This document shows positions 41,869 through 54,649 of a stretch of DNA of 64,000 nucleotides, piece by piece. The position numbers and the translations under genes are program-made. The notes beneath the pieces were generated by a model. That model searched no databases. It saw only the letters and a list, made by a program, of their open reading frames with translations, and had not been told where the DNA came from. Location of the stretch: NCBI RefSeq assembly GCF_017569205.1, contig NZ_CP071870.1, positions 3,286,001 through 3,350,000 on the forward strand, in the 5' to 3' direction. This DNA is from Propioniciclava sp. MC1595. Its GTDB lineage: Bacteria; Actinomycetota; Actinomycetes; Propionibacteriales; Propionibacteriaceae. Position 1 is the first letter of the stretch. Every line of letters starts with the position of its first letter.

Positions 41869-43360
41869 GGTGCTGTCAGATGGTTTGTGTAAGCGGTCCT
41901 TCTACCGGAAGGAACCATGATGAGTGTTGTGACCGATACGACGAATCATTCGAACAGGCTGTCTGCTGCCGAGCGACGTGCTTTGCGGGCTGAGGCTCCG
42001 GGATCGAAGGCTGCCGCTGACCTGGTGGCTTCGGGCGCTCTGGACGGTTTGTTCGCCCGCATCGATGCCGGCGAGATCGATCTGGCCGGGGATGGCGGGT
42101 TCATCCCGGGTTTGATCAAGGCCGCCCTCGAGCGCGGCACGCAGGTCGAACTCACCGACCACCTCGGCTACGAGAAGGGTGACCCGCACGCCTCGGCGTT
42201 CCCGAACTCGCGTAACGGGACGACTCCGAAGACGGTCGCGACCCAGGTCGGGGACGTCGACTTGGACCTCCCGCGGGACCGGCTGGGCACGTTCGAGCCA
42301 CGCCTGGTACCGAAAGGGACGCGCCGGTTGAACGAGCTCGATGAGATGATCATCGCCTTGTACGCCGGCGGGATGACGGTGCGTGACATCGAGTACTTCC
42401 TGCGGTCCACGCTGGGTACGGAGTTGTCACACGAGACGATCAGCAAGATCACCGACACCGTCGCCGATGAGGTCCTCGCGTGGCAGCAACGCGCTCTGGA
42501 CGCCTTGTACCCGGTCATCTACTTGGACGCGATCATGGTCAAGGTCCGTGACGGCGCGCACGTGACGAACAAGGCCGCCCACCTGGCCGTCGGGGTGGAC
42601 ATGGACGGCATCAAGCACGTGCTCGGCATCTGGCTGCAAACCACCGAAGGAGCGAAGTTCTGGGCCGGCGTGTGCGCCGACCTGGCCAACCGCGGCATCC
42701 GCGATGTCCTCATCGTGTGCTGCGACGGCCTGGTCGGGCTGCCGGAGGCGATCGAGGCGACCTGGAACGAAGCGACCGTGCAAACCTGTGTCGTCCATTT
42801 GATCCGGGCTGCGATGCGGTTCGTCGGCTACCAGGACCGCAAGGCCGTGGCGGCGGCGTTGAAGCCGATCTACACCGCCTCAGACGCGAAGGCCGCGCGC
42901 AGCGAGCTGGACGCGTTCGCTGACGGCCAGTGGGGCAAGAAGTACCCCCACGCGGTCAAGACGTGGGAGAACGCGTGGGAACGCTTCATCCCGTTCCTGG
43001 CCTTTCCGCCGGCCCTGCGGAAGGTGATCTACACCACCAACAGCATCGAGAGCCTGAACTACCAACTACGGAAGGTGTCGAAGAACCGCGGGCACTTCCC
43101 CAACGACACTGCGGTGGTCAAACTCTTGTGGCTAGCGATCTGCACCATCGAGGACAAACGCGCTCGTGACCGCGCCAAGGAAGCCGGCCAACCCGCCGGC
43201 AAACGCAAGGCCCCCGGCCGGCTCGTCGAGGGACAGATCGTGACGAACTGGAAACAAGCTCTGGCCCAACTCGCCCTCGTCTACCCCGAACGCATCAACC
43301 GCTACCTCTAGATTCGAACAACAACAAGAGGATCCCTTACACAGAAATCTTGACAAGCTC
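41869..43360 (+). mobile_element. IS256-family insertion sequence
   Basis: About 1492 bases carrying one transposase gene. The ends are imperfect inverted repeats of about 35 bases: the left end begins GGTGCTGTCAGATGG and continues TTTGTGTAAGCGGTCCT; the right end, reversed, begins GAGCTTGTCAAGATTTC and continues TGTGTAAGGGATCCT. Flanks are GGGGGCCGA on the left and ACGGCCCGA on the right, which match at six of nine positions and may be a decayed 8-9 base target duplication. The element sits inside a pectate lyase gene. Exact ends should be set by comparison with other copies. Confidence 0.8.
41917..43311 (+). CDS. IS256-family (mutator-type) transposase
   Basis: A 464-residue full-length DDE transposase. 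The catalytic parts are visible: first Asp in VIYLDAIMVKVR, second in VCCDGLVGLPEAI, and Glu in YTTNSIESLNYQLRK, the last being a mutator-family signature. The N-terminal DNA-binding region is intact (YEKGDPHASAFPNSRNGTTP). No frameshift or stop interrupts it, so the element may still be active. A GGAAGGA ribosome site lies just before two tandem ATGs at 41917 and 41920. The transposase reads in the same direction as the interrupted pectate lyase. Confidence 0.93.
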   Translation: MMSVVTDTTNHSNRLSAAERRALRAEAPGSKAAADLVASGALDGLFARIDAGEIDLAGDGGFIPGLIKAALERGTQVELTDHLGYEKGDPHASAFPNSRNGTTPKTVATQVGDVDLDLPRDRLGTFEPRLVPKGTRRLNELDEMIIALYAGGMTVRDIEYFLRSTLGTELSHETISKITDTVADEVLAWQQRALDALYPVIYLDAIMVKVRDGAHVTNKAAHLAVGVDMDGIKHVLGIWLQTTEGAKFWAGVCADLANRGIRDVLIVCCDGLVGLPEAIEATWNEATVQTCVVHLIRAAMRFVGYQDRKAVAAALKPIYTASDAKAARSELDAFADGQWGKKYPHAVKTWENAWERFIPFLAFPPALRKVIYTTNSIESLNYQLRKVSKNRGHFPNDTAVVKLLWLAICTIEDKRARDRAKEAGQPAGKRKAPGRLVEGQIVTNWKQALAQLALVYPERINRYL

Positions 43361-44519
43361 ACGGCCCGACAACGTGTTCCACGTCAGCACCTGGCAGGAG
43401 TTCCGCACGGCGCTGGGTGGCGGGGGCAACGCGGCCCGCACCAACACCGAGCCGCGGATCATCTACGTCCACGGCGAGCTGAACGCCTTCGAGGCCGCGG
43501 ACGGCACGATGACCACCTGCGCGACGTTCGAGGAGGAGACCGGCTTCAGCCAGGCCGCCTACATCGAGGCGTTCGACCCCTACGGCCCGTGGGGCTGGAA
43601 GGACCCGGAGGGCGAGCTCGTCGACCTCCAGGCCGCGGCGGCCAACGCCCAGGCCCTGCAGACGCAGCAGCACATCGGCTCCAACAAGACGATCATCGGG
43701 GTCGGCGACGACGCGCGCATCGTGGGCGCGAACCTGCGCATCCGGGACGCCGACAACGTCATCGTGCGCAACCTCACCGTCTCCGACTCCACCGACTGCT
43801 TCCCGGAGTGGGATCCCGGCGACACGGCGTCCGGGAACTGGAACAGCCGCTACGACAACATCTCGGTGTGGACCTCCACCCACGTGTGGATCGACCACAA
43901 CACGCTCGACTCCGGCGACCTGCCGCCCGACGCCCTGGCGTCCGTGTACGGCCGCCCCTACGAGGTGCACGACGGGCTGCTCGACATCACGCACAGCTCC
44001 GACCTCGTGACGGTGTCGTACAACCGCTTCGAGCCGCACGACAAGACGATGCTGATCGGCTCCTCGGACGGCCGGACCGCCGACCGCGGCACCCTGCGCG
44101 TGACCCTGCACCACAACAAGTGGACCGACATCGGCCAGCGCGCCCCGCGCGTCCGGTACGGCCAGGTCGACCTGTACAACAACTACTACGTGCAGACCGG
44201 CCCGTACGACTGGTACTCCTACTACTGGGGCGTCGGACGTGAGTCGGCCCTGTACGCCGAGAACAACTACATCCAGCTCGACCCGGCCAACGACGCCTCC
44301 ACCATCATCGCCAAGTGGGGTGGTGTGGCCATGACCGAGATCGGGACCCGGGTCAACGGGAAGAAGGTGTCCGCGCTGGACGCCTACAACGCCGCGAACC
44401 CGACCGACACGATCGGTGACGACGCCGGGTGGACCCCCCAGTACCGCCTCAAGGTCGACCCGACGATGTCGGTGCCTGCCCAGGTGGAGCTGCGCGCGGG
44501 CGCGGGAACGCTCCGCTGA
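43361..44519 (+). pseudogene. Pectate lyase family 1, 3' portion cut off by the insertion element
   Basis: About 385 residues of a family 1 polysaccharide lyase, beginning NVFHVSTWQEFRTALGGGG. Core features are intact: the vWiDH motif (HVWIDHNTLDSGD), the calcium-site DITHSSD, and the catalytic Arg in TLHHNKWTDIGQRAPRVRYG. The enzyme would cleave pectate outside the cell by beta-elimination. The first codons now derive from the IS right end, and the signal peptide is lost, so even if translated from an internal start the product should not be exported. A strong hairpin terminator follows the stop. The catalytic domain itself shows no stop or frameshift, which implies a recent disruption. Confidence 0.85.
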
Positions 44520-44562: not shown

Positions 44563-45228
44563 CTAACCGACCACCAGCAGCAGGTCGCCACCTTCCACCG
44601 TCTGGGAGTGCTGCGGCGCCACCCGCTGCACCGTGCCCGCGACGGGCGAGGTGATGGACGCCTCCATCTTCATCGCCTCGATGGTCGCCACCTGGTCGCC
44701 GACCGCAACGGTGTCACCCGCCGCGACGGTCAGCGTGACCACGCCCGAGAACGGCGCGGGCACCTCGCCCGGGTTCGCCGGGTTGGCCAGATCGGCGGCG
44801 ACGACGTTGCTCTCGACCGAGGCGTCCCGCACCATGACCTGGCCACGGCTTGTTAATCGTGCGCTCGGCGAGGAACTGCAACAGCTTGGTCGCCCGGTCG
44901 GCCGACTCGTGCGGGCGCAGCAGTTCGGGATGCTCGTCGATGAACGACGTCGTGGCCCGCCCCGCGAGGAAGTCCGTGTCGGCGAGCACGCCGCGCAGGA
45001 AGCCGATGTTGGTGCTGACGCCGCGGATGCGGAACTCCGCCAGCGCCCGCTGCGCCCGGCGTACCGCGCGTGGGCCTCCTTGGCCGCGCGCACGATCCCC
45101 TCGATGTCGAGGTAGGCGCGCACCGGGTGGCCGCGCTCCCCGATCTCGTAGCTCTCGTCGGCCTTCAGGCGATACTCGGCCAAGCGATCCTCGTAGGGGA
45201 AGACGGCGACGGTCTTGATGCCGAGCTG
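44563..45228 (-). pseudogene. Pyruvate carboxylase pseudogene with two large deletions
   Basis: Three blocks closely match the intact pyc in this window (51266-54649). Block 1 (from 45228) is residues about 24-76 (LGIKTVAVFPYEDRLAEYRL and on). Block 2 is about 404-474 (RALAEFRIRGVSTNIGFLRG and on), in a different frame. Block 3 is about 1032-1127, the biotinyl domain with EAMKMEAS. The residues between the blocks, including the biotin carboxylase active site and all of the carboxyltransferase domain, are gone, as are the first 23 residues. It cannot be functional. Substitutions relative to the intact gene are scattered, suggesting a duplicate or acquired homologue that decayed in place. Confidence 0.9.
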
Positions 45229-45340
45229 GGTGCAGGTTCCCCATGACTGCCCGCGGCGATGGTCGGCGCCGCCAGACGACGATGTGCCGGTTCCCGAGGT
45301 GGAACCACAACTCGTGGATTCTGTGCGACGTAGCGCCGGT

Positions 45341-45435
45341 TGGACTACCAATCTCGGGGTCGCATCGCGAGGCGTGAGACGAAAGGCCTTGTCAGAGGCT
45401 TTGGGGTGCCGACGGGCGATCTCCTTGGTAGTCCA
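45341..45435. repeat. Widely spaced 11-bp inverted repeat, possible paired operators
   Basis: TGGACTACCAA (45341-45351) and TTGGTAGTCCA (45425-45435) are exact complements 73 bases apart. Each half is also close to a TTGG-N4-CCAA palindrome. They lie 134-228 bases upstream of the kinase-phosphorylase start. A looping repressor site or the ends of a tiny mobile repeat are both possible. Confidence 0.5.
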
Positions 45436-45510
45436 CATGGCGCTACGCGTCGCCCGTGAACCCGCGACAATGCCCGTGTGGGAACGCAAGCCGTTCGTAC
45501 GGGTCCTGTA

Positions 45511-45538
45511 CCCACCGTGACACCCCCGGTGGGATAAT
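45511..45538 (+). promoter_or_regulatory. Promoter region and palindrome of the kinase-phosphorylase gene
   Basis: The inverted repeat CCCACCG-N9-CGGTGGG (45511-45533) abuts a -10-like GATAAT (45533-45538), 30 bases upstream of the GTG start. The position suits a repressor site. The -35 box is unclear. An AAGGAG ribosome site lies at 45558-45563. Confidence 0.45.
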
Positions 45539-45568
45539 GGGCGCGGTTCCCCAGACGAAGGAGTCCCC

Positions 45569-48148
45569 GTGCCCTTGTTCTCCGCGCTCACCGATCCCAG
45601 CTCGATCCCCACCGGGGACATGCCGGGGGACAAGGTGCACATCACCGATTGGCATCTGGCGGCTGCGGCCACGCTGTACCCCGCCCTGCGCGAGCAGCTC
45701 GACCCCGTCCTGGCCGCGGGACGCGCCGTGGTGGCCGTCTACGGCGGCTCGGGCGTGGGCAAATCCGAGCTGGGATCGCTGCTCGGCTACGCGCTCAACG
45801 CGGACGGCATCGGCGCCTACATCCTGTCGGGCGACAACTACCCGCGCCGGATCCCCTCCGTCAACGACGCCGAACGCCTGCGCGTCTTCCGCCACGCGGG
45901 CGTCCGCGGGCTGGTGGACGCCGGGGCCTACGACGCGTCCGTCCGGGACGCCCTCTCCTCCCTCCAGGCTGCGGGGATGGACGCCGACCCGGCGGCCGCC
46001 GCCGAGCACCCTTGGCTCCCGACCTACCTCCGCGCGGGCTCCACGGCGCTCGCCGCGTACCTCGGGACACCGAACGAGATCGACTTCGCCGAGGTGAACG
46101 CGATCATCGCCGCCTTCAAGGGCGGCGCCGACACCCTGACCCTCAAGCGCATGGGGCGCACCGAGGCCGACCAGTGGTATGACCAGGTCGACGTCTCGGG
46201 CACCCGCGTGCTCGTCATCGAGTGGACCCACGGCAACAGCGACTTCGTCGAGGGCGTGGACGTGCCCATCCTGCTCAACAGCACCCCGGCGCAGACGCTG
46301 GCGCACCGCCGCGCTCGCGCCCGTGACGGGGCGGTCGACAGTCCCTTCACGACGCTCGTCTTGGGATTGGAGCAGGCCAAGCTGGACGCGCAGGCACCCA
46401 AGGCGTCCCTGATCCTGTCGAAAGAGGGCGAACTGCTCACCTACGACGCCTACCTGAAGGCGATGGGGCGCCACCTCCCCCGCGATGGCGTCATGCTGAA
46501 CGCCTACCCCGACAGCCTGGACGGCACCCTGGCAGGCCTGGCGGCGTTCGTGCAGCGTCCCGAGGTCGCCGGCGCGTTCAGGTCGCTGTACCTGCTCCCC
46601 AGCGTGTTCAACAGCGACCTCGACCGCGGCTTCAGCGTGATCGACTACGGGCTGAACGACCTTCTGGCGAAGCCCGCCGACCTCGAGGCGCTGGCCGCTG
46701 CGGGGCTCGACCTGAAGTTCGACTTCATCCTCAACCACGCCTCGGTGCTGTCGCCCCAGTTCCAAGACATCCTGGCCCGCGGCGAGAGGTCGCCCTACAA
46801 CGACTTCTTCATCGACTGGAACGCCTTCTGGGCCGGTCACGGCGAGATGACGCCGGAGGGCTACATCCAGCCACGCGCGGACCTGATCGAGCACATGTTC
46901 TTCCGCAAGCCGGGCCTGCCGCTGTTGATGGTGCGTCTGCCCGACGGGTCGGAGAAGCCGTTCTGGAACACCTTCTACCAGGAGGTCCGCTACCCCCGCG
47001 TGGACGCCCAGGACCTGATGGCGGCCGGCTTGCAGTACGCCTCGGCGGACGAGTTGGCCACCCGGGTCAACGCCACCATCGCGGACGGCGGACGACCCGG
47101 GGATGCGGACTTCACCGGCTTCGAGGCGTGGCGGGACGCCGTGGTCGACCTGGTGGAGTCGCGGCGCACCTACCTGGGCCAGATGGACCTCAACATCAAG
47201 TCGCACCTGGTGTGGACGTTCTACGCCGACACCTTGGCCAGGCTCGCGGGCTACGGCGCCGAGATCGTCCGGCTGGACGCTTTCGCCTACGCCCCCAAGG
47301 AGCCAGGCGAGAAGAACTTCCTGAACGACCCCGGTACGTGGGATCTGCTCGACCAGGTGAAGGCGTTGGCCGACCGGCACGGGGTGAAGCTGCTGCCCGA
47401 GATCCACGCCCGCTACGAGGAGGGCATCCACGAGACGATTGCGGCCAAGGGGTTCCTCACCTACGACTTCTTCCTGCCCGGGCTGCTGATCCACGCGTTC
47501 GAGACGCACTCCGCCGAGCGCCTGCTCGCGTGGATCGGCGACATCCAGGCCAAGGGCATCAAGACGGTGTCGATGCTGGGCTGCCACGACGGCATCCCGC
47601 TGCTCGACCTCAAGGGCCTGCTCAGCGACGACGAGATCGAGTCGGTGATCGCCACGGTGCGCGGACGCGGCGGCTACGTGAAGGATCTCCACGGCCAGAA
47701 GGCGACCTACTATCAGGTCAACGCCACGTACTACAGCGCTCTGGGCTGCGACGACGCATCGATGCTGCTGGCCCGGGCGATCCACCTGTTCATGCCGGGC
47801 AAGCCGCAGGTGTGGTACCTCGACCTCTTCGCCGGCGAGAACAACCTGGCCGCCGTCGAGCGTGCGGGGTCGGGCGGGCACAAGGAGATCAACCGCACCA
47901 ACCTGTCGGCCGACGACCTCGAAGCCGGCCTCGCGAGGCCCGTTGTGCAGCGCCAGATCGACCTGCTGCGGTTCCGCAACACCCACCCGGCGTTCGGGTG
48001 GGATGCCGAGCTGACGGCGTCCGGAGAAGGCTCGGTGTTGATCTTGGAGTGGTCGCGCGAGGGCCACACCGCACGGTTGGAGGCCGACCTCGCGACCCGG
48101 GCGTTCCGGATCACCGCGGACGGCACGGACCTCGACAGCCAAGGCTGA
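45569..48148 (+). CDS. P-loop kinase fused to GH13_18-type sugar phosphorylase
   Basis: An 859-residue two-domain protein. Residues about 50-290 form a uridine-kinase/phosphoribulokinase-like P-loop domain with Walker A GGSGVGKS (59-66), ILSGDNYPRR (near 85-94, like the kinase acidic/acceptor loop), VLVIEWTHG (Walker B-like, 214-222) and an arginine-rich lid (AHRRARARDG). Residues about 300-859 form a GH13 barrel of the sucrose-phosphorylase subfamily: nucleophile Asp570 in IVRLDAFAYA, acid/base Glu611 in LLPEIHARY, and transition-state Asp674 in LGCHDGIP. Such enzymes split disaccharides with phosphate. The kinase half might phosphorylate a sugar before or after cleavage; that is inference. 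A sucrose/maltose-type MFS gene is convergent. No signal peptide is present. Confidence 0.82.
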   Translation: MPLFSALTDPSSIPTGDMPGDKVHITDWHLAAAATLYPALREQLDPVLAAGRAVVAVYGGSGVGKSELGSLLGYALNADGIGAYILSGDNYPRRIPSVNDAERLRVFRHAGVRGLVDAGAYDASVRDALSSLQAAGMDADPAAAAEHPWLPTYLRAGSTALAAYLGTPNEIDFAEVNAIIAAFKGGADTLTLKRMGRTEADQWYDQVDVSGTRVLVIEWTHGNSDFVEGVDVPILLNSTPAQTLAHRRARARDGAVDSPFTTLVLGLEQAKLDAQAPKASLILSKEGELLTYDAYLKAMGRHLPRDGVMLNAYPDSLDGTLAGLAAFVQRPEVAGAFRSLYLLPSVFNSDLDRGFSVIDYGLNDLLAKPADLEALAAAGLDLKFDFILNHASVLSPQFQDILARGERSPYNDFFIDWNAFWAGHGEMTPEGYIQPRADLIEHMFFRKPGLPLLMVRLPDGSEKPFWNTFYQEVRYPRVDAQDLMAAGLQYASADELATRVNATIADGGRPGDADFTGFEAWRDAVVDLVESRRTYLGQMDLNIKSHLVWTFYADTLARLAGYGAEIVRLDAFAYAPKEPGEKNFLNDPGTWDLLDQVKALADRHGVKLLPEIHARYEEGIHETIAAKGFLTYDFFLPGLLIHAFETHSAERLLAWIGDIQAKGIKTVSMLGCHDGIPLLDLKGLLSDDEIESVIATVRGRGGYVKDLHGQKATYYQVNATYYSALGCDDASMLLARAIHLFMPGKPQVWYLDLFAGENNLAAVERAGSGGHKEINRTNLSADDLEAGLARPVVQRQIDLLRFRNTHPAFGWDAELTASGEGSVLILEWSREGHTARLEADLATRAFRITADGTDLDSQG

Positions 48149-48197
48149 CCCTGCGTTCGGCGCCCCGGCCGGCGGGCAGGGTGCGCCGTCGCAGCGC

Positions 48198-48704
48198 TCA
48201 GACGTCCTCGGGCACCTCGATCTCGGTCACGTCACCCCACGCCGCCGGGGGACGCACCACCAGGACCTCGCACGGGGCTTCACGCACGACGGCAGACGCG
48301 ACCGTGCCGAGCAGGCGTCCGGCGAGACTGGTGTCTCGGATCGCCCCGATCACGATGAGGTCCGCCTCGTGCTGCTGCGCGGCCCTCAGGAGGGCGGAGG
48401 CAGCCTCGCCCTCCACCAGCAGCGACGCCTTGACCTGCGCGCCCAGGCCGGACGCCGTGGATGTCGCGGTCGCCAACGCGTTGCTGGCCGCTTCGCGTCC
48501 CAACACAACGGAGGTCCGGGTGTCACCGAGGGTGGCCGTCGCCTTCGCACCCTCGCGCATCGTCATGCCCGAATAGGCGCAGACGATGACGAGGTCGGCC
48601 TCCTCGGCAGCGGCCAAGAACGAGGCCCTCGCGACGGTCGGGTCGGACAAGGCAGAGCCATCGGTGCCGACGACGATGCATCCGTACGGAGTCATGCTTG
48701 CCAT
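48198..48704 (-). CDS. Universal stress protein
   Basis: A 168-residue single UspA domain. It begins IVVGTDGSALSDPTVARA and ends with the ATP-binding pattern DLIVIGAIRDTSLAGRLLG followed by TVASAVVREAPCEVLVVRP, which keeps the Gly-x2-Gly-x9-Gly(Ser/Thr) spacing only approximately. It probably binds ATP and acts in stress or growth-arrest responses in the cytosol. The start is the first ATG, with GGGAG upstream; it begins one base after the MFS stop, so it is cotranscribed with the transporter. A later ATG (MTPYGCIVVG) would also give a full domain. Confidence 0.88.
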   Translation of the reverse strand: MASMTPYGCIVVGTDGSALSDPTVARASFLAAAEEADLVIVCAYSGMTMREGAKATATLGDTRTSVVLGREAASNALATATSTASGLGAQVKASLLVEGEAASALLRAAQQHEADLIVIGAIRDTSLAGRLLGTVASAVVREAPCEVLVVRPPAAWGDVTEIEVPEDV

Positions 48705-48705
48705 C

Positions 48706-50103
48706 TCAGGCTCCCTTCGTGGTGACGGTCTCGTCGCCAGAGCCGACCGGCTCGATGTCGCGCACGATCGGGGGCTCCTTGACCCAGAGCATGACCAAGC
48801 CGGCGATGCCCAGCAGGATGCCGGCGGCCATGATCGCGTTGTTGGGGTTGTCCCCCAGCAGGTTCTTGTAGATCGCGCCGAACGTGAGCGTCTGGATGAG
48901 CATCGGGATGACGATCATCATGTTGACGATGCCCATGTAGACGCCGTAGCGGGTCGAGGGAACCATGCGCACGATCATGATGTAGGGCACGCCCATGATG
49001 GACGCCCACGCGATGCCCAGGCCCACGATCGCGACGACCTTGAGCGGCAGGGTCGGCATTTGCGGGAACAAGAGCAGACCCACCGTGGCGCACCACAGGG
49101 CGATGGCGTGCACCCACTTCGCGCCCAGGCGGCGGGCCAGGGCAACCAGCCCGAACGCGACACAGAAGGTCACGATGTTGTAGGCACCGTTGATGACGCC
49201 TGTGTTCGCGACGGCGAGCTGATAGCCCTCGGAGCGGGCGTCCGTCGTGCCGTACAGCGACTGGGACACCGACAGCGACACGTATTGCCAATAGATGTTC
49301 ATGGCGTACCACTGGAAGAGGTACACCAACGCCAGCTTCCGCATCTCGATCGGCATGTCGATGATGGCGTCCTTGATCTCGGCGATGAAGTGGCCGGGGC
49401 CACCCTTGCTGGCGCGGAGCTCGGCGAGTTCTTTCTCCGTCGGCTCGAGCTCGGGCGTTGACAGCACCGAGATCAGCACCGTGGCGATCGAGCAGACCGA
49501 GCCGAGGAGGAACGCCGGGTAGACCCACAGCGGGATGCCGACGGACTGACCCAGGCCGAAGACGCCCTGGAAGAACATCAGGCTCAAGTTGGCCAGCGTG
49601 ATCCCCAGGCCGGTGAAGAACGACTGGGCGAGGAAGCCCTTGCCGAGTTGGGCCGGGGGGAGCCGGTCGGCGATGAACGCGCGGTAGGGCTCCATCGCGG
49701 TGTTGTTGGAGGCGTCCAGGAGCCACAGCAGGAGAACCGCCATCCAGACCGCCCACACGAACGGGAACAGCGCCAGGCAGATCGCGCAGCCGATGGCACC
49801 GATGAGGAAGAAGGGGCGTCGGCGCCCGCGGAAGAAGCCCTTCTCCACCCATGTTCGGTCTGAGAGGGCCCCGATGATGGGTTGGATGAGCAGGCCCGTG
49901 ACCGGACCGGCCAGGTTGAGCAGCGGCAATTGGTCGTGTGACGCGCCCAGGAACGTGTAGATCGGATTGATGGCCGTCTGCTGCATGCCGAAGCTGTACT
50001 GGATGCCGAAGAACCCGAGGTTCATCAGGAGGATCTGCGGCATGGTCATGATGGGCTTCGTGCGGACGACCGCCGACGTCGTGGGGGCTCCTGCGGTATT
50101 CAT
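48706..50103 (-). CDS. MFS sugar symporter (sucrose/maltose type, SLC45-like)
   Basis: A 465-residue 12-span transporter. The front half has the pattern of sucrose/maltose carriers related to SLC45 and plant SUC proteins: a long run from INPIYTFLGASHDQLPLLNL to IQPIIGALSDRTW, then RGRRRPFFLIGAIG and LLDASNNTAMEPYRAFI. It would import a disaccharide with protons. The neighbour on the other strand, a GH13_18-type phosphorylase fused to a kinase, is the likely intracellular user of that sugar. Its ATG overlaps the SRPBCC stop as ATGA, and the stress protein follows after one base, so the three genes form one operon. Confidence 0.85.
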   Translation of the reverse strand: MNTAGAPTTSAVVRTKPIMTMPQILLMNLGFFGIQYSFGMQQTAINPIYTFLGASHDQLPLLNLAGPVTGLLIQPIIGALSDRTWVEKGFFRGRRRPFFLIGAIGCAICLALFPFVWAVWMAVLLLWLLDASNNTAMEPYRAFIADRLPPAQLGKGFLAQSFFTGLGITLANLSLMFFQGVFGLGQSVGIPLWVYPAFLLGSVCSIATVLISVLSTPELEPTEKELAELRASKGGPGHFIAEIKDAIIDMPIEMRKLALVYLFQWYAMNIYWQYVSLSVSQSLYGTTDARSEGYQLAVANTGVINGAYNIVTFCVAFGLVALARRLGAKWVHAIALWCATVGLLLFPQMPTLPLKVVAIVGLGIAWASIMGVPYIMIVRMVPSTRYGVYMGIVNMMIVIPMLIQTLTFGAIYKNLLGDNPNNAIMAAGILLGIAGLVMLWVKEPPIVRDIEPVGSGDETVTTKGA

Positions 50104-50564
50104 GCCTGTCCTCCATCCAGATAGGTGCCCAAGCGGGCCAATTCCTTCTCCCAGCCGGCGGCGTGATACTGCGCCACGGCCGGGTCGTACGGCCCCTGGA
50201 CGATGCGCACGAGCGTGCTGTCGCCGCCCATGGCGGTGAACTCGACGCGCAGTTCGAGGGACTCGTTCGGGTCGATGCCGGAGTCGCCCGTGATGCGCTG
50301 ACGCGCGACGAACACGTCCGGGTCGAAGTACTCGGTGAAGACGGCGTCCGTGGTCACGCGGACGCTCGGGTCGTCGTCGCGCACCTTCACGTGATGGTGC
50401 TTGCCGCCGGTCCGCAGGTCCGACGTGACGCTCTCCCGTTCGACGTGCCACCCAGGGCTGCCCCGCCACTGGGACATCTCCTCGGGTGCGGTCCAGGCGC
50501 GAAACACGCGGGGCCGCGGGTGGGCGAACTCCTGCTCGACCACGACGATGACATTTGCTGACAT
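50100..50564 (-). CDS. SRPBCC (AHSA1-like) ligand-binding protein
   Basis: A 154-residue Bet v1-fold protein of the AHSA1/START group. It opens VVVEQEFAHPRPRVFRAWTA and has the typical WxxPEEMSQW-like helix and a C-terminal helix, YHAAGWEKELARLGTYL. Such proteins bind hydrophobic ligands; some stand-alone members act in toxin or stress responses. A GGAGG ribosome site precedes the ATG. It is the first gene of a three-gene operon with the MFS sugar symporter and the universal stress protein, an unusual partner for sugar uptake. A 12-bp palindrome lies about 50 bases upstream. The role is unknown. Confidence 0.78.
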   Translation of the reverse strand: MSANVIVVVEQEFAHPRPRVFRAWTAPEEMSQWRGSPGWHVERESVTSDLRTGGKHHHVKVRDDDPSVRVTTDAVFTEYFDPDVFVARQRITGDSGIDPNESLELRVEFTAMGGDSTLVRIVQGPYDPAVAQYHAAGWEKELARLGTYLDGGQA

Positions 50565-50612
50565 GCGTCCTCCAAGTGGGGGTTGACTCGGCGCTCGGGG
50601 GCCACCCGAGGC

Positions 50613-50624
50613 GGTTGCGCAACC
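50613..50624. promoter_or_regulatory. LacI-type operator-like palindrome
   Basis: GGTTGCGCAACC is a perfect 12-bp palindrome with the central CG step typical of LacI-family operators. It lies 49-60 bases upstream of the SRPBCC-MFS-USP operon start, where a sugar-responsive repressor would act. A related half site (TGTGCAACGG) lies about 70 bases further upstream. No LacI gene is in the window. Confidence 0.45.
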
Positions 50625-50753
50625 CGCGTTGGCTGCCAGCACCGGGGTATCCCGTTCCGCATCATGGCACCCCATCCGGAGCCTGTGCAACGGTCAGGAA
50701 CGACAATTCTCACCAGGGCGTCGAGAGTCGCTCATCACCTGGGCTCGGCATTC

Positions 50754-51092
50754 ATGGAGGCCGGCAGCTACCGTGAGAACATCGCCAACCGGACGGCGAC
50801 CCGCCGGGTGGTCGTCACCATGACGCGCCTCTTGGGTGGAGCCACCCTGGTGGGTGGGGTCACGCTGGCTCGCGTCAGCGGCTTATCCGGCGGCGCTCAT
50901 CATCGGCAGCGTCCTCGTGGTCGCCTCCCTCGTCCTCATTCGGGACGCCGTCGTGCTAGGCCGCGATCTGCGCCGTGAGCCGCTGGACTTCGCGTTCGAG
51001 CCCGCCCCCAGCCGCGGGCTCCTCTCCCCCGGCACCGTGTTCGGCTTGGCTGGCGGCGTCGGGACGCGCCCCGCAAACGCTCCTCGAAAATG
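50754..51092 (+). pseudogene. Frameshifted, truncated copy of the pyc-linked membrane protein
   Basis: This stretch closely follows the start of the intact gene at 54726: MEAGSYRENIANRTATRRVV here against MEARSYLENIANRTTMRSVI there. After about 43 codons the frame shifts (near 50885), and similarity continues in another frame as YPAALIIGSVLVVASLVLIR, then DFAFEPAPSRGLLSPGTVFG, before ending near 51060. The C-terminal half is absent. It is the partner of the pyc pseudogene at 44563-45228: in the intact locus the two genes are divergent neighbours 76 bases apart, whereas here the sugar cassette separates them. Confidence 0.88.
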
Positions 51093-51120
51093 AATCTGCG
51101 CCCCCTCCAGCAGGTGCGAA

Positions 51121-51258
51121 TCACGTTTCGAGGTGCATCTGGCTCGCCTCGGCCACGGCGTCCAGCCGCCTCTGGTCGTACTGGCCGTTCACGATCGTCA
51201 CCGTGCAGCCGAGTCCGGACAGCTGATCCACCGACGCCGACTCCAGTTCGGACGCCAT
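51121..51258 (-). CDS. Possible 45-residue peptide after pyc
   Basis: The frame begins seven bases after the pyc stop on the same strand and encodes MASELESASVDQLSGLGCTV, then TIVNGQYDQRRLDAVAEASQ, then MHLET. It is acidic with a plausible strand-helix arrangement. No ribosome site is obvious, but coupling to pyc termination is possible. It could be the tail of an older gene cut off when the duplication formed. I do not recognise it. Confidence 0.3.
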   Translation of the reverse strand: MASELESASVDQLSGLGCTVTIVNGQYDQRRLDAVAEASQMHLET

Positions 51259-51265
51259 CAGGTCA

Positions 51266-54200
51266 TCACGCCGGCGTGACCACCAGCAGCAGGTCGCCAC
51301 CTTCCACCGTCTGGGAGTGCTGCAGCGCCACCCGCTGCACCGTGCCCGCGACGGGCGAGGTGATGGACGCCTCCATCTTCATCGCCTCGATCGTCGCGAC
51401 CTGGTCGCCCACCTCGATCGCATCACCCGGGGCAACGGTCAGCGTGACCACGCCCGAGAACGGCGCCGGCACCTCGCCCGGCACCGACGGGTTCGCCCGC
51501 TCGGCCGCCACGACGTTGCTCTCCACCGCCTCGTCGCGCACCATGACCTGGCGCATCTGGCCGTTGATCGTGGCCAGCACCGGGCGCAGCCCGCGCTCGT
51601 CGGGCTCGCCGATGGCCTGCAGGCTCATCAGCAGCGTCTTGCCCCGCTCGATCGGCACGTCGTGCTCGCGCCCCGGCTCGAGCCCGTGCAGGAACTGGCG
51701 GGTGGTCAGCACCGACAGGTCGGAGTACTCCCCCGTGGCCTCCTCGTAGTCCTTCGTCGGGCCGGGGAACAGCAGCCGGTTCAGCGTGCGCCGGGGCTCG
51801 GACGCCAGCGCCGCGGTGTCCTCCTCCGACAACTCCGTCTCGACCGGGCGCACCCGGCGGCCCTCCAGGGCCTTGGTGCGGAACGGCTCGGGCCACCCGC
51901 CGGGCGGGTCACCGAGGTCGCCGTTGAGGAAGCCGATCACCGAGTCGGGGATGTCGTACTTCTGGGGGTCTGCCTCGAACGCCACCGGGTCGATGTTCTG
52001 GCCCACCAGCGCCAGCGCGAGGTCGCCGACGACCTTCGACGACGGCGTCACCTTGACGATGTTGCCGAGCATCGTGTTGGCCGCGGCGTACATGTCCTCG
52101 ATGGCCTCGAACCGATCGCCCAGTCCCAGCGCCATCGCCTGCTGGCGCAGGTTCGACAGCTGGCCGCCGGGGATCTCGTGGGTGTACACGCGCCCCGTCG
52201 GCCCGGGCAGGCCCGACTCGAACTCGCCGTACAGCACGCGCACGGCCTCGAAGTAGGGCTCGAGGTCCTCGGCCGCAGCCAGCGACAGCCCGGTCGCGCG
52301 CTCGGTGTCGTCGGTCGCGGCGATCAGCGCCGACATCGACACCTGGCTCGTCGTGCCGGCCCAGGCGGCGTTGGCGACGTCCACGGCGTCCACCCCCGCG
52401 TCGATCGCGGCGAGCAGGGTGCCCAGCTGGCCGCCGGCGGTGTCGTGGGTGTGCAGGTGGACCGGCAGGTCGAAGTTCTCCCGCAGCGCGGCCACCAGCT
52501 TGGACGCCGCGGGCGCGCGCAGCAGCCCCGCCATGTCCTTGATCGCCAGGATGTGCGCGCCGGCCTCGACGAACTGCTCAGCCAGGCGCAGGTAGTAGTC
52601 GAGCGTGTAGAGCTTCTCGCCGGGCGAGGTCATGTTGCCCGTGTAGCAGAGGGCGGCCTCGGCGACGGCGTGGTCGGTCTTGAGCACGGCCTCGATCGCG
52701 GGGCGGATCTGGTCGACGTTGTTGAGGGCGTCGAAGATCCGGAAGATGTCGACGCCGGTGGCGGCGGCCTCGGCGACGAAGGCGTCGGTGACCGCCAGCG
52801 GGTAGGGCGTGTAGCCGACGGTGTTGCGGCCGCGCAGGAGCATCTGGATCGGCAGGTTCGGCAGCGCCTCGTGCAGGGTGGCCAGGCGGGCCCACGGGTC
52901 CTCCTTGAGGAACCGCAGCGCCACGTCGTAGGTGGCCCCGCCCCACGCCTCGACCGAGAACAGCTCGGGCAGGGTGCGCGCGATCCACGGAGCGACGTTC
53001 ATCAGGTCGCGGGTGCGTACGCGGGTGGCGAGCAGCGACTGGTGGGCGTCCCGGAAGGTGGTGTCGGTGACCGCCACGGCCGTCTGCTCGCGCAGCGCCC
53101 GCGCGAACCCGACCGGGCCCAGCTCGAGCAGCTTCTGCCGCGAGCCGTCCGGCGGGGTGGCCTTGAGGTCGATCGGCGGCAGTTTGGTGCGGGCGACGAC
53201 GGGCGTCCGGGGCTCGCCGTAGGGCTTGTTGATCGTGCGCTCGGCCAGGAACTGCAGCAGCTTGGTCGCGCGGTCGGCCGACTCGTGCGGGCGCAGCAGC
53301 TCGGGGCGCTGGTCGATGAACGACGTGGTGGCCCGGCCGGCGAGGAAGTCGGGGTCGGCAAGCACGCCGCGCAGGAAGCCGATGTTGGTGCTGACCCCGC
53401 GGATGCGGAACTCGGCCAGCGCCCGCTGCGCCCGGCGCACCGCGGTGGCGAAGTCGCGGCCGCGGCAGGTGAGCTTGACCATCATCGAGTCGAAGTGGGC
53501 GCCGATCTCGGCGCCGGCGAACACCGTGCCGCCGTCGAGGCGGATGCCCGCGCCGCCCGGCGTCCGGTACACCGACACCTTGCCCGTGTCGGGGCGGAAC
53601 CCGTTGGCCGGGTCCTCGGTGGTGACGCGGCACTGCAGGGCGGCGCCGCGCAGGTGGATGGCGTCCTGGCTCAGGCCGAGCTCGGCGAGGGTTCGGCCGG
53701 CGGCGATGCGCATCTGGGAGGAGACCAGGTCGACGTCGGTGACCTCCTCGGTGACCGTGTGTTCGACCTGGATGCGCGGGTTCATCTCGATGAACACGTA
53801 GCGGCCGTCCTGGCCGAGCAGGAACTCCACCGTGCCGGCGTTGACGTAGCCGATGTGGCGGGCGAAGCGCACGGCGTCGGCACAGATCTGGTCGCGCAGC
53901 GCGGGGTCGAGGTTGGGGGCCGGCGCCAGCTCGATGACCTTCTGGTGGCGGCGCTGCACCGAGCAGTCGCGCTCGTAGAGGTGGATGACCTCGCCGGTGG
54001 CGTCGGCCAGCACCTGGACCTCGATGTGGCGGGGCTGGTCGACGGCCTCTTCGAGGTAGACCCGCGCGTCACCGAACGCGGCGTCGGCCTCACGCATCGC
54101 CTCCTCGAGCGCGGCGGGCAGCTTGGCGGGGTCGTCGACGCGGCGCATGCCCCGGCCGCCGCCGCCGGCCACGGCCTTGACGAACACCGGGTAACCGATC

Positions 54201-54649
54201 TCGGACGCCGCGGCCTGCAGCTGGGCGACGTCCTCCGACGGCTCGGCGCCGCGCAGTACCGGCAGGCCGGCCTCGCGGGCGGCCGCGATGGCGGTGGCCT
54301 TGTTGCCGGTGAGGTCGAGCACCTCGGCCGAGGGGCCGATGAAGGTGATCCCCTCCTCGCGGCAGCGCCGGGCCAGGCCGGCGTTCTCGCTGAGGAACCC
54401 GTAGCCGGGGTAGATCGCGTCGGCGTGGGCCTCCTTGGCGGCGCGGATGATCCCCTCGACGTCGAGGTAGGCGCGCACCGGGTGGCCGCGTTCACCGATC
54501 TCGTAGCTCTCGTCGGCCTTCAGCCGGTACTCGGCGAGGCGGTCCTCGTAGGGGAAGACGGCGACGGTCTTGATGCCGAGCTCGGTCGCGGCGCGGAACG
54601 CCCGGACGGCGATCTCGCCGCGGTTGGCGACCAGGATCTTGGTGAACAT
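51266..54649 (-). CDS. pyc: Pyruvate carboxylase
   Basis: An 1127-residue biotin enzyme that carboxylates pyruvate to oxaloacetate, an anaplerotic step. The biotin carboxylase part comes first (KILVANRGEIAVRAFRAA; VAGGGGRGMR for ATP; FIEMNPRIQVEHTVTEEVT). The carboxyltransferase follows (DTTFRDAHQSLLATRVRT; metal-site HLHTHDTAGGQ). The biotinyl domain is last, with the lysine in EAMKMEAS near residue 1090. All parts are intact. The ATG follows TAGGGT by six bases on the reverse strand (leaderless). A divergent membrane-protein gene starts 76 bases away. A shrunken pseudogene copy lies at 44563-45228. Confidence 0.97.
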   Translation of the reverse strand: MFTKILVANRGEIAVRAFRAATELGIKTVAVFPYEDRLAEYRLKADESYEIGERGHPVRAYLDVEGIIRAAKEAHADAIYPGYGFLSENAGLARRCREEGITFIGPSAEVLDLTGNKATAIAAAREAGLPVLRGAEPSEDVAQLQAAASEIGYPVFVKAVAGGGGRGMRRVDDPAKLPAALEEAMREADAAFGDARVYLEEAVDQPRHIEVQVLADATGEVIHLYERDCSVQRRHQKVIELAPAPNLDPALRDQICADAVRFARHIGYVNAGTVEFLLGQDGRYVFIEMNPRIQVEHTVTEEVTDVDLVSSQMRIAAGRTLAELGLSQDAIHLRGAALQCRVTTEDPANGFRPDTGKVSVYRTPGGAGIRLDGGTVFAGAEIGAHFDSMMVKLTCRGRDFATAVRRAQRALAEFRIRGVSTNIGFLRGVLADPDFLAGRATTSFIDQRPELLRPHESADRATKLLQFLAERTINKPYGEPRTPVVARTKLPPIDLKATPPDGSRQKLLELGPVGFARALREQTAVAVTDTTFRDAHQSLLATRVRTRDLMNVAPWIARTLPELFSVEAWGGATYDVALRFLKEDPWARLATLHEALPNLPIQMLLRGRNTVGYTPYPLAVTDAFVAEAAATGVDIFRIFDALNNVDQIRPAIEAVLKTDHAVAEAALCYTGNMTSPGEKLYTLDYYLRLAEQFVEAGAHILAIKDMAGLLRAPAASKLVAALRENFDLPVHLHTHDTAGGQLGTLLAAIDAGVDAVDVANAAWAGTTSQVSMSALIAATDDTERATGLSLAAAEDLEPYFEAVRVLYGEFESGLPGPTGRVYTHEIPGGQLSNLRQQAMALGLGDRFEAIEDMYAAANTMLGNIVKVTPSSKVVGDLALALVGQNIDPVAFEADPQKYDIPDSVIGFLNGDLGDPPGGWPEPFRTKALEGRRVRPVETELSEEDTAALASEPRRTLNRLLFPGPTKDYEEATGEYSDLSVLTTRQFLHGLEPGREHDVPIERGKTLLMSLQAIGEPDERGLRPVLATINGQMRQVMVRDEAVESNVVAAERANPSVPGEVPAPFSGVVTLTVAPGDAIEVGDQVATIEAMKMEASITSPVAGTVQRVALQHSQTVEGGDLLLVVTPA

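Follow-up and report, generated by a model that had tools for sequence, protein, structure and literature searches.

The gene at 45569..48148 (+) of the window, a stretch of 64,000 nucleotides of the Propioniciclava sp. MC1595 genome (a single contig of 3.43 Mb), probably encodes a bifunctional enzyme, an ATP-dependent sucrose 6F-kinase joined to a sucrose 6F-phosphate phosphorylase (SPP). Its product of 859 amino acids consists of a P-loop kinase domain (aa 1-301) and a GH13_18 phosphorylase domain (aa 302-859). Sucrose would enter the cell unphosphorylated, here probably via a neighbouring MFS symporter, and the N-terminal domain would use the gamma-phosphate of ATP to phosphorylate it at the C6 hydroxyl of the fructosyl unit. 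In the C-terminal domain, this phosphate would be held by R446, K705 and K772, and phosphorolysis would be carried out by D570 and E611. The net conversion in one chain would be that of sucrose and ATP to sucrose 6F-phosphate, and of the latter with inorganic phosphate to glucose 1-phosphate and fructose 6-phosphate. In this way, the glucose and the fructose unit alike would reach glycolysis phosphorylated, at the expense of one ATP and one inorganic phosphate, with neither a phosphotransferase system (PTS) nor a separate fructokinase. The proposal draws on the identity of both domains, the fold of the kinase, conserved residues, genomic linkage and repeated changes of fusion state.

The fused gene and its phosphorylase domain

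The fusion is real and natural. The open reading frame starts with GTG, preceded by AAGGAG, ends in a stop codon and has the codon-position GC content typical of a genuine high-GC gene. An antisense frame (45443-48142, -) is a shadow of the high GC3, its first codon position mirroring the third position of the sense frame. As a single open reading frame, the fusion is kept in 19 of the 293 genomes of the order, its own genome counted, and an artefact or assembly join is ruled out because many independent genomes carry it. The natural fusion put forward in a preliminary description of this DNA is borne out. The same description knew of no enzyme with this pairing. For the exact kinase-SPP fusion, this holds among the literature matches listed, including the available parts of PMC8950772 and PMC11046441, in a search with most subscription journals outside its scope. 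Both halves belong to known kinds of enzyme; it is the pairing that was not found in the literature searched.

The C-terminal domain (46472..48145, +) is 50% identical to IcSPP, the SPP of I. coccineus, and its residues 302-851 match GH13_18 structures, with the IcSPP crystal structure (6S9U) as the top PDB entry (E 4.6e-173). IcSPP itself is encoded by one of the loci studied here (L084:7151-8719, genome G405), the protein being identical to 6S9U across 523 residues. Conservation was assessed in an alignment of 54 rows, that is, 56 loci minus L118, in which the phosphorylase is cut by a contig end, and L005, a near copy of the window. D570 (47276..47278) and D674 (47588..47590) occur in all rows and E611 (47399..47401) in 53, the remaining row having a gap. 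We take these three residues to be the GH13 nucleophile, transition-state stabiliser and acid/base, respectively. The barrel and its three acids had been recognized correctly beforehand.

The acceptor site is equally informative. Loop A (47681..47716) contains K705 and K711, equivalent to Lys364 and Lys373 of IcSPP, and YYQ at 714-716, together forming the KxxYYQ signature described in the accessible text of PMC7178133; YYQ is present in 54 of 54 rows and K711 in 50. According to the alignment with 6S9U, R446 (46904..46906), K705 and K772 (47882..47884) correspond to Arg152, Lys364 and Lys434 of IcSPP, and each of them is unchanged throughout the 54 rows. In IcSPP, these residues contact fructose 6-phosphate and single changes loosened the specificity, while the enzyme was active on sucrose 6F-phosphate and on no other compound tried (PMC6720575, available parts); a role in binding fructose 6-phosphate is accordingly predicted for R446, K705 and K772 here. 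The equivalog model of classical sucrose phosphorylase (TIGR03852) gives 313.4 bits, under the NCBIfam cut-off of 334.4.

By its sequence, the C-terminal half is thus a member of the strict SPP clade of GH13_18 and no ordinary sucrose phosphorylase, with a predicted specificity for sucrose 6F-phosphate. The substrates named for the barrel in the preliminary description (sucrose, glucosylglycerate and glucosylglycerol) are disfavoured by the active-site motifs, and a glucosylglycerate or glucosylglycerol phosphorylase was excluded in view of the closest PDB entry and the motif of loop A. With IcSPP and RgSPP (EC 2.4.1.329, GH13_18), the domain shares the KxxYYQ signature, the equivalents of R152, K364 and K434 and the catalytic triad. 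It differs from them in being fused to a kinase and in having about 50 extra residues after WNTFYQ, at about aa 475-525. The promiscuous TtSPP of Thermoanaerobacterium catalyses the same reaction, but belongs to another GH13_18 clade with different acceptor-site residues and is encoded, as far as the source parts available describe it, in a cluster with a PTS and a putative phosphofructokinase.

The kinase domain

The N-terminal domain (45569..46471, +) contains a Walker A motif, GGSGVGKS (aa 59-66; 45743..45766, +), and a second conserved segment at aa 89-100, DNYPRRIPSVND (45833..45868, +), in which D89, P96, N99 and D100 are found in 54 of 54 rows and Y91 in 53. Besides D89, the residues G59, G64, K65, E218, R247, R250 and R252 are invariant in the 54 rows. 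D89 presumably occupies the position of the catalytic base, by analogy with uridine kinases. In Pfam and NCBIfam, the domain search that had been suggested for this half reaches no cut-off, with sub-threshold P-loop matches only. The phosphoribulokinase/uridine kinase family PF00485 gives no match at E 1 or better and stays under its gathering cut-off, while 7 of 23 relatives match it at E 0.01 or better. The kinase fold that had been proposed is nevertheless recovered by structure prediction: the predicted fold (pLDDT 83.3, pTM 0.82, from an alignment of 10 sequences) falls in the pantothenate kinase / uridine kinase / phosphoribulokinase group. The top single PDB sequence match is 3c8u (E 0.0058), which is also the first Foldseek row.

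The closest informative relative is the kinase domain of AgaSK, the GH36 alpha-galactosidase-sucrose kinase of Ruminococcus gnavus. Locus L113 (genome G1125) encodes a GH36-kinase protein, followed directly by an SPP gene; its GH36 part and that of the R. gnavus AgaSK crystal structure (2YFN) are nearly identical. The kinase domain of this protein (its last 218 residues) matches the N-terminal half of the window protein with an E value of 4e-60 and 38% identity over 259 aligned columns, and it scores 244 bits against the kinase profile A1, built without L113. In both proteins, the kinase is fused to a neighbouring enzyme of sucrose or raffinose use, and in R. gnavus an SPP gene lies beside it. 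Unlike in the window protein, the kinase of AgaSK is C-terminal to GH36 and is without an insert of roughly 46 residues; in the window, it stands N-terminal to SPP, which is predicted to consume what the kinase makes. Since the partner is a GH13_18 domain and not GH36, the window protein is, on sequence grounds, a relative of the AgaSK kinase and not an AgaSK.

ATP-dependent phosphorylation of sucrose is documented for whole AgaSK and for its kinase domain alone, with a Km for sucrose of 3.1 mM and 1.0 mM, respectively (PMC7688924, available parts). By analogy with these assays, sucrose would be the substrate of the window kinase as well. Two mechanisms had been considered at the outset, phosphorylation of the disaccharide before cleavage and trapping of a freed sugar. 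The homology of the kinase to the sucrose-kinase domain of AgaSK argues for the first. The second, in which fructose set free by the barrel, through cleavage of sucrose or some other glucoside, would be phosphorylated by the kinase, seems very improbable. It could appeal to the name of 3c8u, a fructokinase or putative fructose-transport-system kinase. However, SPPs of this clade release fructose 6-phosphate, a product that is already phosphorylated (PMC6720575 and PMC6521584, available parts), and the narrow activity of IcSPP, the retention of all three specificity residues and the sub-threshold sucrose phosphorylase score speak against a barrel acting on unphosphorylated glucosides.

Just as improbable are two further roles for the domain, phosphorylation of a product of phosphorolysis (glucose 1-phosphate or fructose 6-phosphate) and regulation through ATP binding without catalysis. 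A putative phosphofructokinase gene does accompany TtSPP of the other clade (PMC7178133, available parts), but the domain is homologous to a kinase assayed on sucrose, and the invariance of G59, G64, K65, D89, E218, R247, R250 and R252 speaks for catalysis. We therefore retain the reading as a sucrose kinase. The predicted structure of the full-length protein (mean pLDDT 65.4, pTM 0.54, from an alignment of 11 sequences) has most of the barrel poorly modelled, and no claim is made on the relative placement of the domains because the model is too poor. That the intermediate might be channelled between them is conjecture.

Linkage, fusion and the position of the phosphate

A functional link between an SPP and a neighbouring kinase is already in print (PMC6521584, available parts). 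Among 391 Clostridia genomes searched with the kinase of Anaerofilum, 16 matched, 14 of them strongly and two at E 4.8e-4 and 8.7e-4. Profile A1, run against 200 genomes of one Clostridia family, matched 18 of them with E values no higher than 1e-8, two of which had already been seen. In all 30 Clostridia genomes with a strong match (a count that leaves out the weak matches of G800 and G945), SPP lies directly behind the kinase or is fused to it; the placement likewise leaves out weaker matches in G513, G517, G575, G595 and G623. All 56 loci chosen for a kinase or a fusion hold both domains: 28 fused, 26 separate, and two with a GH36-kinase plus SPP. This set includes L005, but neither the cut loci L030 and L031 nor other near copies (L004 and L023-L026 among them). 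In each of the 28 unfused loci, the kinase comes first on the same strand as SPP, with 5-182 bases between the domain ends. The separate Clostridia pairs (for example, L028 from an Anaerofilum MAG) have the same two proteins in the same order and on the same strand, with or without GH36, and differ from the window in being two genes instead of one.

As these loci had been selected by the kinase or the fusion, the converse was searched separately. With the SPP profile A2, 13 of 245 Clostridia genomes matched at E 1e-30. A strict-clade SPP (over 1000 bits) occurs in six of these, and the kinase is present in all six, although four (G687, G808, G871 and G883) are rows of A2 and score highly by construction, while G716 and G913 are not. 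No strict-clade SPP without a kinase was found among the 245 genomes. The other seven (299 bits or less; other GH13_18 or GH13 proteins), which by their numbering belong to the sample searched for the kinase, are absent from the kinase matches in the 391 genomes.

The state of fusion has changed repeatedly. In a tree of 54 SPP domains, the kinase-SPP fusion needs three changes, placed at the actinobacterial clade, at the clade of L080, L115 and L117, and at L116, and three are also forced by the starred branches alone; the fusion of GH36 and kinase is one further change. The tree was made by a quick method with SH-aLRT support and a midpoint root, and each change could be a gain or a loss. Fusion of the kinase with either the preceding enzyme (GH36, which releases sucrose from raffinose) or the following one (SPP) fits a middle step from sucrose to sucrose phosphate.

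Both domains of the window protein also contain inserts of roughly 45-50 residues (kinase aa 108-150, SPP aa 478-524), which are lacking from the AgaSK-type kinases of L113 and L114, from IcSPP and from the SPPs that go with these kinases. Both inserts are present in 36 of the 54 rows and neither in nine, with the kinase insert alone in seven and the SPP insert alone in two. Correlated evolution of the two was considered, but a paired test on the tree, with only two starred pairs, shows nothing. A clostridial fused copy (L117:5900-6893, -) has an extra insert of about 40 residues in the kinase, after the conserved EWTHAN motif.

The position of the phosphate is the point on which the proposal departs from the literature. 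Mass spectrometry is not known to distinguish the 6F from the 6G isomer readily. The product of AgaSK, identified by this technique, is reported as sucrose phosphorylated on C6 of glucose (6G), or as the result of glucose phosphorylation, so that in R. gnavus the kinase is reported to yield one isomer (6G), while the phosphorylase beside it uses the other (6F) (PMC7688924, available parts). If the assignment is right and holds for the window kinase, the product would not fit the attached phosphorylase. The two domains would then serve separate routes and the sucrose 6F-phosphate would come from elsewhere; in their accessible parts, Tauzin 2019 (PMC6521584) and the 2020 review (PMC7178133) leave its origin to a PTS or uptake. 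We consider this unlikely, if less so than the two alternatives above. The adjacency or fusion to a strict SPP in 56 of 56 kinase-chosen loci, together with three changes of fusion state, would make little sense if the product were unusable. The 6F position is therefore favoured for the window kinase because the attached phosphorylase is of the type that takes 6F and would have no use for a 6G product of its own kinase.

The wider kinase family is not in its entirety tied to SPP. Genome G400 has a kinase that shows 60% identity to the short kinase beside IcSPP and does not adjoin an SPP; kinases of this kind, in this genome and in three more, precede a protein of roughly 700 amino acids instead. 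This arrangement is seen in loci of the same phylum (L168:14709-17449, L169, L170:8917-11828 and L171:4957-7772; the partner is shown only in part in L169), and the partner is conserved at 68-72% identity. It has no Pfam or NCBIfam match, and the one tested has no PDB match. Seen by eye, it has motifs that resemble GH13 (FDFMRGDMSHV, for example), but homology to GH13_18 was rejected, a profile comparison of four close sequences giving a probability of 0.4%. A role can thus be assigned to the short kinase beside IcSPP with less certainty than to the AgaSK-like group, of which the window kinase is a member.

Neighbourhood, transport and significance

The fusion gene is followed by a gene for a universal stress protein (48198..48704, -; Usp 80.3 bits) and by an MFS transporter gene (48706..50103, -) that converges on it. 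The start codon of the latter is uncertain, so that its upper limit of 50103 is approximate; the piece scanned was 48706-50043. Its best NCBIfam model is GPH_sucrose, a sucrose/proton symporter, at 73.8 bits, far under the cut-off of 511. The nearby transporter of the preliminary description is supported, and it likely imports unphosphorylated sucrose, as judged from this match. No sucrose PTS scores above cut-off in the genome (best 250.9 bits against 559.3). A single GH32N match above the Pfam cut-off (67.8 bits, a frame of 330 amino acids), located beyond the window, some 24 kb further along than the fusion, was considered as a rival sink for sucrose phosphate.

Together with the fusion, the genes for the stress protein, the transporter and an AHSA1 protein form a block of 5.5 kb with about 98.3% DNA identity to G221, a genome of another genus. 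As the fusions of three genomes of the same genus are only about 70% identical, the near-identity of the block across genera points to recent horizontal transfer. Against L159, from a genome of another genus, window positions 45244-50737 are about 98.3% and 50894-51201 97.1% identical in DNA. The same near-identical block, at 98% protein identity, occurs in L024, a MAG labelled Corynebacterium sp., through transfer or an error of binning or naming. Upstream of the fusion (about 44563-45240, -) lies a remnant of pyruvate carboxylase, reduced to the gene start and the biotinyl end, with an apparently intact copy downstream (51266-54649, -); a similar remnant is present in L023 and L026. An IS256-family transposase lies beside a pectate lyase gene at 41917-44519 (+).

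The linkage of the MFS gene to the fusion is seen only within the near-identical block: by tblastn, the gene is beside none of 21 more divergent fusion copies, some of whose loci are short on one side. Ten neighbouring proteins from six of the divergent loci were scanned. An ABC sugar transporter adjoins the fusion in L148, together with a LacI regulator, and in L153, and a phosphoglucose isomerase gene lies just upstream in L152; the scanned neighbours in L144, L145 and L150 show no sugar link.

Fusion of a sucrose kinase to another enzyme, GH36, is known from AgaSK (PMC7688924, available parts), and the origin of sucrose 6F-phosphate is treated as an open matter in the 2020 review (PMC7178133, available parts). 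The present fusion bears on two points, namely this origin and the 6G regiochemistry reported for AgaSK. With both predicted activities in one natural chain, the question of 6F or 6G becomes testable in one tube. The protein would also be a convenient biocatalyst by which cheap sucrose could be turned into sucrose 6F-phosphate or into both hexose phosphates. For the family as a whole, we lean slightly towards the view that all AgaSK-type kinases are sucrose 6F-kinases and that the published 6G product of AgaSK is a misassignment. A PTS-free, ATP-driven route of sucrose use would then be widespread in Clostridia and Actinobacteria, and would have been compressed several times into one enzyme, possibly passing the intermediate from one domain to the other.
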